IMG/VR virus record: IMGVR_UViG_3300024265_000097
Coordinates: 1-45,106 of that record
Length of the DNA stretch: 45,106 nucleotides
Strand: one strand, 5' to 3'
From: a virus
The notes beneath the pieces were generated by a model. The model searched no databases, had not been told where the DNA came from, and saw only the letters and a program-made list of their open reading frames with translations. The translations under genes and the position numbers were made by a program. This document shows positions 31,347 to 45,106 of this stretch, piece by piece (within the stretch, counting starts at the first letter, position 1; the number at the start of each line of letters is the position of its first letter).

Positions 31347-32375
31347 GTGAATTATGTTGGCGATTTCGTAGACGATGCAACGGTTTATATTCCGTTTAAT
31401 ACTTTTGACTCCAATGACCCAAGCGCATCGGTCACAATAACAGATTTAGCACAGGGAGATGTGGAGATTTGGAAAAACGGTGTTGTTCAGACTACCCCCG
31501 GAGCAGGAGTTACTCTTACGCTCAATATCGGTGCTAATAATGGTTCGCACTTAATTGCAGTCGATACAAGCGATGTTACTGATGCGGGATGGTTCGCAAC
31601 TGGAAATGATTACCAAGCAAGAATAAACGGTACAACTGTTGACGGAGCCACTATCAATGCCTGGGTGGGCACTTTTAGTATCGAGAATCGGTTCATGCGT
31701 GGAACAGATAGTGCAGCTCTCGCTTCTGTGTTGGGTGCTGCTGTAGGCGCAACTATCAGTGCCGATATTGCAGACCTTCCGACAGTTGCCGAGTTTGAGG
31801 CGAGAACTATTGTGTCTGCCGATTATGTCGTTGTAGGTGATACCATTGCGGCAGTAACCCTTGTCAATGGTCTTGCAGCAAATGTCATTACGGCGGCATC
31901 AATAAATGGCGACGCCATTACTGAGGCCAAGATCGCAGATGATGCTATCGCGGCTGAACATCTTGCAACCGGGGCAGTAGTAGCTGCCACATTTGCAGCA
32001 AACGCTATAACGTCGACAGTTGTTGCGGACAATACAGTTACCGCAGCCAAACTTAATGCAGATTGCATTACGAACGCTAAAATTGCAGACGACGCTATAG
32101 GTGCTGAGAATCTGGCTACAGATGCGTTAAGTGCAGATGCCCTTGCCGCTGATGCCGTAACGGAGATATGGGCAAAGACAATGAGTGATTTGGCAGGAAT
32201 ACCCGCTTTTAATGCGAGTGTCTTGGACGCTATCAATATTATGTTTATGGCCCTAAGAAATGAACAAACAGCTACATCTACTGCTCAGACGATAGCTAAC
32301 AATGCAGGTACAACAATAGCTACGGCAACACTGTCTGATGCTGCCGGTACTACTACAAAGGCTGAGTACGCGTAA
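31347..32375 (+). CDS. Tail-fibre-like protein with shaft repeats (342 aa)
   Basis: GTG start, AAAGGA upstream. N-terminal domain (VGDFVDDATVYIPFNTFDS) resembles phage fibre heads. Residues about 185-265 hold short repeats of the type ITEAKIADDAIAAEHLATGAV, usual in trimeric fibre shafts. C-terminus is Ala/Thr-rich. Stop overlaps the next ATG. Confidence 0.75.
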   Translation: MNYVGDFVDDATVYIPFNTFDSNDPSASVTITDLAQGDVEIWKNGVVQTTPGAGVTLTLNIGANNGSHLIAVDTSDVTDAGWFATGNDYQARINGTTVDGATINAWVGTFSIENRFMRGTDSAALASVLGAAVGATISADIADLPTVAEFEARTIVSADYVVVGDTIAAVTLVNGLAANVITAASINGDAITEAKIADDAIAAEHLATGAVVAATFAANAITSTVVADNTVTAAKLNADCITNAKIADDAIGAENLATDALSADALAADAVTEIWAKTMSDLAGIPAFNASVLDAINIMFMALRNEQTATSTAQTIANNAGTTIATATLSDAAGTTTKAEYA

Positions 32376-33526
32376 TGTCATTAGAGAACGCAACAAAACG
32401 AAGATCACTTTTTGCAATGGGTTTGCTCGCGTTAGTGGTGCATCCTGTACCAGACGGTGTTATAGCAGGTTTAGATAGACGGCATCTCCTTGGCTTGATG
32501 GCGACGCAGGGAGTTCTAACAGGCAATGTTCATATATTCAGTACAGGTATTGTTGAGCCGAACCACATTGCCGATTCAGGCAGTAATCTGTTGGTTGCAG
32601 GTGATTTAGAAGTTCAGGGAGCAGGATGGGTTGAGGGCGTTTTGACTGTCAAAGGGATCGCTGACGGTGGGCGTACAAATTATGACTTAAAAGTCGGCGA
32701 TACAGATGGGTCGCCAACGTATGGCATGATACAAATGGGTAATGCTTCAATCGGCAGGACTTCGCATACTGACGGTATAGACTTAGATGGTGCGGTGCTT
32801 ATTAGAAATATAGCTGGTCCGGTAACAAGCGAGATAGAATTTATTTTTGCGGAATCAACTGGCAGCACTTGCCGATTTGCTCTTCCTAAATCCGGCGTTG
32901 GCAATGCTACGTATAATCCCCGGTCTCTGCTTATTGCGGGACCTGCCCCGGCAGATACGGATTTTGTTAAAGTTACTTATTGGAGAACAAATAATAATAT
33001 ATTTCACAATATAGATTGTGATACGACCGGTGTCGGTGCCGATCTTGGCGTACAGAATGATTTGGAAGTCGAAGGGGACATATTTACTGATAGTCTTCTG
33101 GAAAGTACGCCCGGAGCGGGCATAGAAAGCAACAAAATCAAATTAACGTCTATCGGTGGCTATGCTGTAAAGTTAACTAACAAAAGTGGCGCAAATAGCG
33201 TTGCCGGTGACGTTGTCCAAGTTGCGGCGGCAACGGCTGATGCGGTTGATATAACAGATGCGGGCAATCTGTTTCCTGTAGGTGTGTTTTTAGATAGTGG
33301 CGTAGCCGACGGGAGCGAGGCATGGGTTGTGATTGCCGGTATAGCAGATGTTCACATGGATGCAGGTGGGACTACGATACAGGACAGAATTATAACAAGT
33401 GCAACTCCGGGCCGTGGCGACGCATCCAATAATCCTGCTGTGGCCGAACATTTTCAGGAAATAGGTCACGCGTTAGAGACTGTGGGTGCAAATGGAAATG
33501 CCCGATGTATAATACATTTCTTATAG
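32375..33526 (+). CDS. Tail-fibre/receptor-type protein (383 aa)
   Basis: N-terminal 30 residues hydrophobic, then beta-rich fibre (DLEVQGAGWVEGVLTVKG). Residues about 260-383 (AVKLTNKSGANSVAGDVVQV, VFLDSGVADGSEAWVVIAG, ending EIGHALETVGANGNARCIIHFL) match a beta domain shared by phage surface proteins. Likely distal tail component. Confidence 0.7.
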   Translation: MSLENATKRRSLFAMGLLALVVHPVPDGVIAGLDRRHLLGLMATQGVLTGNVHIFSTGIVEPNHIADSGSNLLVAGDLEVQGAGWVEGVLTVKGIADGGRTNYDLKVGDTDGSPTYGMIQMGNASIGRTSHTDGIDLDGAVLIRNIAGPVTSEIEFIFAESTGSTCRFALPKSGVGNATYNPRSLLIAGPAPADTDFVKVTYWRTNNNIFHNIDCDTTGVGADLGVQNDLEVEGDIFTDSLLESTPGAGIESNKIKLTSIGGYAVKLTNKSGANSVAGDVVQVAAATADAVDITDAGNLFPVGVFLDSGVADGSEAWVVIAGIADVHMDAGGTTIQDRIITSATPGRGDASNNPAVAEHFQEIGHALETVGANGNARCIIHFL

Positions 33527-34642: not shown

Positions 34643-35137
34643 GGTCGGGTGCGATGTGGCGCGGTCCGGTTCGGTCCGGTCGAATATGTTTCGGACAGGT
34701 TCGTTATGGTTAGGCAGGTTAGGACGGGTAAGGTCCGGCAAGGTTCGGTTTGTTAGGTTCCGGCTGGGTCGGGAATGGCAGGTGTGGTACGGCATGGCGG
34801 AGCGAGGTGTGGCATGGTGCGGTCAGGTACGGCAGGTGGGGTTGGGTCTGATAGTGTGGGTTTTGGCAAGGTGCGGTTAGGCAGGTGTGGTGGGATTGGG
34901 TCCGGTCAGGATTGGTTGGCTAAGGTTTGGCAGGTTAGGACTGGCCAGGCATGGAGAGGTGGGTTGAGGTTGGATGAGGTAAGGCAGGTCGGGTTAGGTA
35001 TAATATGATGCGGTGCGGTAGTTAGAGGTATGGATAGGAATGGCAGGTAAGGTAGGCTATGATAAGGTGCGGAACGATACGGTCGGGTATGGCAGGTTTG
35101 GTTAGGTGAGGTAGGGTCAGGTGCGGCAAGGTAAGGT
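34643..35137 (+). repeat. Degenerate pentanucleotide (GGTNN) array
   Basis: About 495 bases, nearly all GG-containing pentamers. GG occurs in strict 5-base register over long runs, e.g. at 34643, 34648, 34658, 34663, 34668, 34673, 34678, 34693, 34698, 34708, 34713 and at 34781, 34786, 34791, 34796, 34806 to 34831. Register drifts by one base between runs. The plus strand is G/T-rich and C-poor. Open frames crossing it give low-complexity protein and lack SDs, so it is non-coding. A TATAAT (34999-35004) interrupts it once. Confidence 0.9.
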
Positions 35138-40686: not shown

Positions 40687-41187
40687 ATGGACATGGACAC
40701 AAAACAGATAATTGAGGAAACCCACGAGTTAATCAGGCTGGCAAAGGGCGTTATTGAACGTTGCGAGGCTGTACTTGCCGAGGCCGAGCAGCCGGAGCTG
40801 CGGCATGGGGATTATGGGTACGACGAAAACAATAGACCGTGCCTGACAATTAAATCGGCAAGCAATAAGTATGAACTACGAGAGGTAGGCTCGTGTTGTG
40901 CGCATGATAACTGCGGATCAACATGGATGTATCGGCCAGACAATCGCATCGGCAACATCTTCGCCGACCTCAAGGCAATATCGGAATCACTGGCGGTGTT
41001 CAAAACAGATATCTACTGGTATCGCATTGACGACGAGAACTATCCTGGCGCACCTATCTATATGGCTGGCAATCACCATAGCGTAGCAGAGGTGGAGGAA
41101 CACATCCTTAAACTTCGCAGATTAGTTGCTACATATAAAAGGACACAGGATGAGCAAGAAGAAACGGAAAAAAGCGACTCTCGCTGA
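40687..41187 (+). CDS. Hypothetical protein (166 aa)
   Basis: Helical N-terminus (IIEETHELIRLAKGVIERCE), then DYGYDENNRPCLTIKS and a Tyr/Asp-rich C-terminal part. No family recognised. Overlaps the HNH gene by 38 bases. Confidence 0.65.
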   Translation: MDMDTKQIIEETHELIRLAKGVIERCEAVLAEAEQPELRHGDYGYDENNRPCLTIKSASNKYELREVGSCCAHDNCGSTWMYRPDNRIGNIFADLKAISESLAVFKTDIYWYRIDDENYPGAPIYMAGNHHSVAEVEEHILKLRRLVATYKRTQDEQEETEKSDSR

Positions 41188-41554
41188 ACGCAAGGCCAAC
41201 CCCAACAGTAAATACTGGAAAGGGAAAGCAGATGACGCCTGGGCAGAAGAAATCAAAAAGGTAGGGCATTGTGAATATTGTAAAAGTACCGTCAACCAGA
41301 AAAACGCGCATCACATTATCGGCCGTACCAGATTGCGGTTTCGCCATGACTTGGCCAACGGTATTTGTTTGTGTACAAGATGCCATGCCTTCGACCCGGA
41401 AATATCACCGCACATCGATAGTTACAGTGCGGAGAATTTTCTGCGATGGCTCAAAGAGTCCCGGCCCGGCCAGTTCCAATGGTACGAAGAGAACAAGCAC
41501 AACAAGCGACAACCCGACTGGACGTATAGAGAGAAGTACGAGGAGTTGATATGA
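41150..41554 (+). CDS. HNH endonuclease (134 aa)
   Basis: CEYCKS, NAHHIIGRTRLRFRHDLANG, then CLCTRCH: the ββα-metal HNH core with the two Cys pairs that bind structural zinc, and the HH catalytic pair. Lys-rich N-terminus. Phage HNH proteins act in packaging-end cutting, recombination (NinG-like) or as homing enzymes; the site here, amid early genes, does not decide. ATG 41150 with AAAGGACACAGG upstream. Confidence 0.85.
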   Translation: MSKKKRKKATLAERKANPNSKYWKGKADDAWAEEIKKVGHCEYCKSTVNQKNAHHIIGRTRLRFRHDLANGICLCTRCHAFDPEISPHIDSYSAENFLRWLKESRPGQFQWYEENKHNKRQPDWTYREKYEELI

Positions 41555-43401: not shown

Positions 43402-43890
43402 ATGAGTGATAAACAAAGAACAGTTGAGCAATGGCTCCACGTACCGGACCAAGACTTACCCGTGACGCTGGCGGAGGCGTTGGTAAAGAAGCCGTGGAAG
43501 CATAAAAAAGATCCAAATGCTTATAGATTTACAAGTTGTATAAAATGCTTGGTAATATTGGAAACACATTTATCGCCCAAGTATTGCACCGTCCCCGACC
43601 CCATCAAAATCGACGAAACCACAGCAAGGTATTATCTCGATAAGGCTATCGCGGGTGTGCCATTGCAACAGTTGTGTGGCCCTTTGCTTGTTGCGATGCG
43701 AGAGATTTGGGAGATCCGTCGTGTATGGAGCGACGATATGTGGAAATGGTGGGCGCTATACGCAACTGCTGCAGACAAGTTAATCGCCGCAGCAATGACG
43801 GCGGAAGGAGCGGAAAAGGAAGTGTGTCCACTCAACAATGACGAGCAGGGCGACGTGTATGATAACAGCATACACGGAATGAGGCCATAG
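43402..43890 (+). CDS. Hypothetical protein ending in palindrome (162 aa)
   Basis: Starts MSDKQRTVEQWLHVPDQDLP. Trp-rich helical body. Its last ten codons and TAG form the left arm of the 65-base palindrome, so its C-terminus (DNSIHGMRP) may not be the original one. No family recognised. Confidence 0.6.
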   Translation: MSDKQRTVEQWLHVPDQDLPVTLAEALVKKPWKHKKDPNAYRFTSCIKCLVILETHLSPKYCTVPDPIKIDETTARYYLDKAIAGVPLQQLCGPLLVAMREIWEIRRVWSDDMWKWWALYATAADKLIAAAMTAEGAEKEVCPLNNDEQGDVYDNSIHGMRP

Positions 43891-43924
43891 CTGCTATGGC
43901 CTCATTCCGTGTATGCTGTTATCA
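43860..43924. repeat. Perfect 65-base palindrome (31-base arms, 3-base centre)
   Basis: Bases 43860-43890 are the exact reverse complement of 43894-43924; centre CTG at 43891-43893. It begins GATAACAGCATACACGG on the left arm (from 43861). No T-tract. It overlaps the end of one gene and the start of the next. Confidence 0.95.
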
Positions 43925-44280
43925 AGAAACTGAACACCAAAATTACGGCAACCGCAAATCTCGGTAATTTAGATATAGGCAAGGAACCTACTTACGGCCC
44001 ATCATCGTGTTCGGTATGTGGGCGCTGTACGTCGCTGCCGGGACATCATCAATGCAATCCGTCATACAAGCAACTCCAAGCCGAACTCGCCAAAGCCAAC
44101 GATTTATTATTCGCATACGAAAGCGTGAAGGCTCCCATAAACCCACTGCTTGCCAAGAATACGCGGCTGCGGATAGCTATAAATATCGCCATCCACTTGA
44201 TATGCAGCGATGACGATTTTGGTGGCACTAAGCAAATATTGGGGATTGAGAAACTTGAGCAAGCCCTGAAAGGAAAATAA
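43909..44280 (+). CDS. Cys-containing helical protein, start inside palindrome (123 aa)
   Basis: Frame is open from CTG 43891; the only usual start is GTG 43909, within the right palindrome arm and without an SD. The body has CSVCGRCTSLPGHHQC (Cys/His knuckle), then a long helix. The original N-terminus may have been lost with formation of the palindrome. Confidence 0.5.
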   Translation: MYAVIKKLNTKITATANLGNLDIGKEPTYGPSSCSVCGRCTSLPGHHQCNPSYKQLQAELAKANDLLFAYESVKAPINPLLAKNTRLRIAINIAIHLICSDDDFGGTKQILGIEKLEQALKGK

Positions 44281-44283
44281 GCC

Positions 44284-44700
44284 ATGAGTGAGCAAAGACC
44301 GTTTAGGGGCCAGCAAAGATGGGGCGACGATAAAGGCAAGTGGGCCTTTGGTTCATTCCTAACATTAGGATTAAGATGTTATATTGTACCGATTCCGCCT
44401 CCACACGAAACACCTGCCGACGATATAACATTACTTGCTCAGATTACAGAAGGCGTCGAAGTCATCCCTGAATCCGTCGGGCAGAGTACGGGGAGGATGG
44501 ATAAAACAGCAAAGGAATCATATCGCGGCGACCGTATCAAGTCCCGTCACTACGACGGTATAGGGGAAATTGTTTGGCGGGGTAACGGGTGGGTGGTAAA
44601 AGTAAAGGGTGATACGCTGCTGTATTCGCTTAATTATGAATTTACTATCATCGGCACAATTCACGACAAGCCGGAACTATTACAGGAGACAGACAAATGA
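44284..44700 (+). CDS. Second YopX-family-like protein (138 aa)
   Basis: AAAGGAAAATAAGCC before ATG 44284. VGQSTGRMDKTAKESYRGDRI, then GEIVWRGNGWVV and EFTIIGTIHDKPELL follow the YopX order, diverged from the copy at 39561. Function unknown. ATGA overlap with the next gene. Confidence 0.65.
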   Translation: MSEQRPFRGQQRWGDDKGKWAFGSFLTLGLRCYIVPIPPPHETPADDITLLAQITEGVEVIPESVGQSTGRMDKTAKESYRGDRIKSRHYDGIGEIVWRGNGWVVKVKGDTLLYSLNYEFTIIGTIHDKPELLQETDK

Positions 44701-44928: not shown

Positions 44929-45106
44929 ATGAAGATGTGGCTACAAACAGTCATGCTAATAATCTCGATAGCCGACCTTGCCTGGGTCGAGCAAGAGGCG
45001 GCATGGGTAGATCGGAGCTTCTTTGCTATCTACAAAAGTGTCCAGAAGGAAGATTATCTCCAGTTGATATGCCGGAACTGGGGCCGGAGAATCCGGTAGA
45101 AACTCG
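44929..45106 (+). CDS. 5' part of the junction-spanning gene
   Basis: ATG 44929 (alternatives 44917, 44935) in frame with base 1 of the window. In this copy a missing G near 45086-45087 shifts the frame to WGRRIR-stop. Using the left copy, the protein continues to 360. The GGGGGG tract upstream serves as SD. Confidence 0.6.
44962..45106. repeat. Right copy of terminal direct repeat
   Basis: 145 bases, identical to 1-146 except for one deleted G. Confidence 0.95.

Follow-up and report, generated by a model that had tools for sequence, protein, structure and literature searches.

Described Palindromes and Hairpins

The protelomerase site telRL of N15-type phages is a long perfect or near-perfect palindrome that lies inside the phage DNA, and T7 carries RNase III hairpins between its genes. 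A perfect palindrome of some 65 bp is tolerated in DNA, with strong instability setting in at greater lengths. Perfect inverted repeats that overlap coding sequence have been described in the mitochondria of Nematomorpha, where they are numerous and conserved in function (PMC6649704). Template switching inserts reverse-complement copies of the nascent or complementary strand, creating perfect hairpin stems in one step (PMC8794818). A search of the literature on long perfect palindromes in phage genomes returned nothing directly relevant.

The 65-nt palindrome described here, from an uncultured T7-like podovirus, shares different features with each of these systems. Like the hairpins made by template switching (PMC8794818), it consists of a perfect reverse-complement copy beside its source, with sharp ends and a short loop; unlike them, it comes without an ancestral sequence, and no source for its central 31 nt was found in the DNA analyzed. 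It overlaps coding sequence, as do the palindromes of Nematomorpha mitochondria, but it is present in a single copy and carries a central stop codon (PMC6649704). In contrast to the N15-type site, it lies within an operon, in a phage in which no protelomerase gene was found.

The Genome Record

The window, meaning the whole stretch of DNA that was analyzed, is an IMG/VR record of 45,106 bases. Matches to T7-like podovirus families were found among its structural genes, including those for the terminase, head–tail connector, major head protein, and tail proteins. The first 126 bases are repeated exactly at positions 44,962–45,087, and the 19-nt tip that follows this overlap differs from the start of the record by the deletion of one G (1–145 compared with 44,962–45,106). 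Because its ends share an exact 126-nt overlap, the record appears to be effectively circular, though it is classed as linear. We infer that the overlap is of the kind left when short reads are assembled with k near 127. To include a 65-nt feature, an assembly of this type would as a rule require reads that span it. This falls short of proof, as multi-k assemblers carry over contigs from shorter k.

Two other repeated elements were observed in the window. A non-coding, strand-asymmetric stretch of about 360 nt (34,650–35,010) is made up of a G-rich degenerate repeat with GGTTAGGCAGGT-like units, and is flanked by two open reading frames (ORFs) from phage families that are conserved but unknown (phrog_15946 upstream and phrog_4652 downstream). 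On the minus strand, several small genes between 367 and 3,430 have a near-identical leader (AGAGGTGAAACCATG) in common, as if a ribosome-binding cassette had been duplicated.

Geometry and Stability of the Palindrome

The palindrome is present in the assembly at exactly the positions given by the first-pass annotation, 43,860–43,924. Its arms had been described as 31 nt each around a 3-nt center; the perfect match stands, and the geometry is better given as 32-nt arms around a single base, as follows.

43,860–43,891, no strand assigned: left arm of the perfect palindrome, 32 nt
43,892, no strand assigned: unpaired center base T; the folded strand has a 3-nt loop, CTG
43,893–43,924, no strand assigned: right arm of the perfect palindrome, 32 nt

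The complementarity of the arms is 100% over the 32 nt on each side of T43892, and the window contains no other perfect inverted repeat whose arms reach 11 nt with a loop of up to 20 nt. By simple arithmetic, the chance of a 32-nt match anywhere in 45 kb is about 1e-15. The predicted fold is very stable, with a free energy of −60.2 kcal/mol as RNA (z −11.9; 0 of 200 shuffled sequences folded as well) and −39.4 kcal/mol as DNA (z −14.3). The earlier remark that such a palindrome is normally unstable is overstated, judging from general knowledge of palindromes of about 65 bp.

Reading Frames across the Palindrome

The palindrome sits within a co-oriented operon of small orphan genes, at the boundary between two ORFs.

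43,402–43,890, plus strand: upstream ORF, orphan, 162 aa, with its TAG stop within the left arm
43,909–44,280, plus strand: downstream ORF, orphan, 123 aa, with a Cys cluster (CSVCGRC) and a GTG start within the right arm

As had been claimed from the sequence, the last codons of the upstream ORF are supplied by the palindrome, and the downstream ORF begins within it. The first start codon of the latter is the GTG at 43,909 and the next in-frame one lies only at 44,125; the GTG inside the palindrome is its only plausible start. No Shine–Dalgarno (SD)-like motif precedes this GTG, again as first noted, whereas most of the neighboring genes have one. Both ORFs share one frame, in which the TAG of the palindrome is the single stop between them. 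Coding signal in frame 1 reaches right up to the palindrome, both before it (43,760–43,849) and after it (43,910–43,999), and is missing from the arms themselves. Few of the likely genes listed for the window use TAG as their stop. A recoded TAG, read as a sense codon, was considered and is unsupported, as the standard code leaves the large genes open and the gene at 32,375–33,526 ends in TAG.

The upstream ORF has no match in Pfam or PHROG, and the downstream ORF has only insignificant PHROG matches (E 0.13–0.44), which, if real, would lean toward a separate short gene and away from the second half of a larger one. No relative of either protein was detectable among isolate phages, in IMG/VR, in GTDB genomes, or in 44 viral records related to this one. 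Directly 3′ of the downstream ORF lies a gene for a YopX-domain protein (44,284–44,700; Pfam PF09643), and an ORF with an HNH endonuclease domain is found in the early operon at 41,126–41,554 (Pfam PF01844, E 1.2e-5).

An 8-nt direct repeat marks the left edge of the palindrome.

43,854–43,861, plus strand: left copy of CGTGTATG, spanning the left edge of the palindrome
43,908–43,915, plus strand: right copy of CGTGTATG, inside the right arm, 54 nt downstream

A direct repeat of at least 8 nt at an edge arose in 1.5% of trials with random flanks drawn from the window. The distance of 54 nt between the copies is a multiple of three, and removal of these 54 nt yields a single open frame of 274 codons that reads through as ...NNDEQGDVYAVIKKLN... 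The repeat and the read-through were both spotted post hoc and are only suggestive as an edge signature; the structure prediction for the read-through protein (pLDDT 37) is uninformative.

Copies and Relatives

No further copy of the palindrome was found, whether the 65-mer was sought elsewhere in its own record, the 32-mer arm in IMG/VR, or the core in IMG/VR or GTDB genomes, and no 12-mer of the arms recurs elsewhere in the window. For comparison with relatives, viruses related through the terminase and connector were collected from IMG/VR, with the larger records completed by their missing stretches, to give 125 loci and 1.45 Mb, some overlap included. Among perfect inverted repeats, to which the count was confined, the longest in these loci (loop up to 15 nt) has arms of 13 nt, and only three reach 12 nt, close to the roughly 1.4 that arithmetic gives for chance. 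The comparison with relatives that the first-pass annotation had proposed thus gave no counterpart of the palindrome in about 1.45 Mb of related loci. No homologous flank for a direct comparison with the state before the event was found in the 44 related viral records.

Origin of the Palindrome

We propose that the perfect hairpin was made by a recent, lineage-specific template-switch (fold-back) mutation during phage replication, a reading that we hold to be about as probable as all others taken together. Over 32 nt, the nascent strand would briefly have been extended on itself or on the opposite strand before it returned to its template. One outcome would be that a single early gene (43,402–44,280) was interrupted in frame by the TAG of the palindrome; another would be that the junction of two early genes was overwritten, along with the second gene's start region and ribosome site. 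If the downstream ORF is still translated, this may occur by reinitiation, after ribosomes finishing the upstream ORF have opened the hairpin. A template switch would account for the perfect arms, the one-base center, the sharp ends, the absence of the element elsewhere, the missing SD motif, and the accidental TAG. At 43,860–43,924, a perfect reverse-complement repeat with a short spacer is found, as expected of such an event, and the direct repeat at the left edge could have provided the microhomology, at the 1.5% chance level given above. The single copy, the lack of a counterpart in relatives, the CGTGTATG repeat, the continuity of the frame, and the rarity of TAG all speak for this reading. 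Against it stands that no relative shows the pre-event state; the mutational origin, the recency, and the ancestral state are all inferred. Moreover, a purely local template does not explain the whole palindrome, because the central 31 nt (GAATGAGGCCATAGC-T-GCTATGGCCTCATTC) have no source in the window, where the longest stretch in common is 10 nt.

The main rival to a template switch in the phage is an artefact, in which amplification or the end repair of the library gave rise to a chimeric fold-back molecule that the assembler then built into the contig. Inverted chimeras are common in libraries and amplified DNA and are well documented (PMC10908179; PMC6218980). The palindrome is unique and absent from relatives, as an artefact would be, and the one-base deletion in the 19-nt tip means that the contig is not error-free. 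However, a typical chimera yields a read that doubles back as its own reverse complement; its arms extend as far as the read does, and only one flank is unique. The arms here end after 32 nt, and each runs on into a unique flank of its own. In addition, with k near 127, as the end overlap suggests, single k-mers would span the 65-nt feature; the circle closes through the site without a visible competing path; and coding carries on in the same frame on both sides. The flanks, the arms, and the closure of the circle make an artefact less likely, and we regard it as improbable, at about half the weight of a template switch. Of the readings put forward in the first-pass annotation, the hairpin and the fold-back origin are plausible; a simple fold-back or assembly artefact is weakened by the two unique flanks, the sharp 32-nt ends, and the near-circular closure through the site.

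A functional hairpin is somewhat less probable still. A 31-bp stem could act in the operon mRNA, either by marking a processing site for RNase III or by locking the start of the downstream ORF until translation of the upstream ORF opens it, or it could form a DNA cruciform used in replication. The stability of the fold, its location at an ORF boundary, and a downstream ORF that lacks an SD motif and starts inside the stem are consistent with such a role; but none of the perfect inverted repeats counted in the related records is comparable, and a perfection of 32 bp exceeds what a regulator needs. There is no T-tract, no terminator call at the site, and no Rfam match, the Rfam and tRNA scans of the window having both been negative; an ordinary intrinsic terminator is not supported, there being no T-run (U-tract) on either strand. 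The specific idea of a selected switch, in which translation of the upstream ORF opens the stem that hides the only start of the downstream ORF and so couples the two without a ribosome-binding site, seems quite unlikely. The replication or recombination site suggested earlier is unsupported, with no comparable element in relatives and no copies. A small mobile element of palindromic type (MITE-, REP-, or Rickettsia-palindrome-like) that had inserted here would explain why palindromic DNA stands in or between ORFs, and the 8-nt direct repeat resembles a target-site duplication; yet there is no second copy in the window, IMG/VR, or GTDB, and the palindrome contains one CGTGTATG copy together with sequence beyond it, unlike a target-site duplication, so that this origin is very improbable. 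A site for hairpin-telomere resolution, or a joint between the inverted terminal repeats of a linear genome, is the least probable of all. The size of the palindrome is similar to that of known resolvase sites and a different flank adjoins it on each side, as is the case in circular virion DNA of the N15 type, but the site lies inside a co-oriented operon and has nothing similar in relatives. The telomere reading of the first-pass annotation is also unsupported by an enzyme: no ResT/TelK-type domain was detected in the genome (no match to PF16684), and none of the large unassigned ORFs (548, 995, and 383 aa) gave a match in Pfam.

Implications

The palindrome is most likely the product of one chance copying error, or else of an artefact in sequencing, and not a special working site. 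If it is an artefact, it calls for caution over contig-based gene calls at the junction of the two ORFs. If it is real, it would be a clean natural example of a phage genome acquiring a long perfect hairpin in a single step, a change that apparently cost the phage a gene or the start of a gene. It would also show that a palindrome in a metagenomic contig, however striking, does not have to be a site of replication or a telomere.
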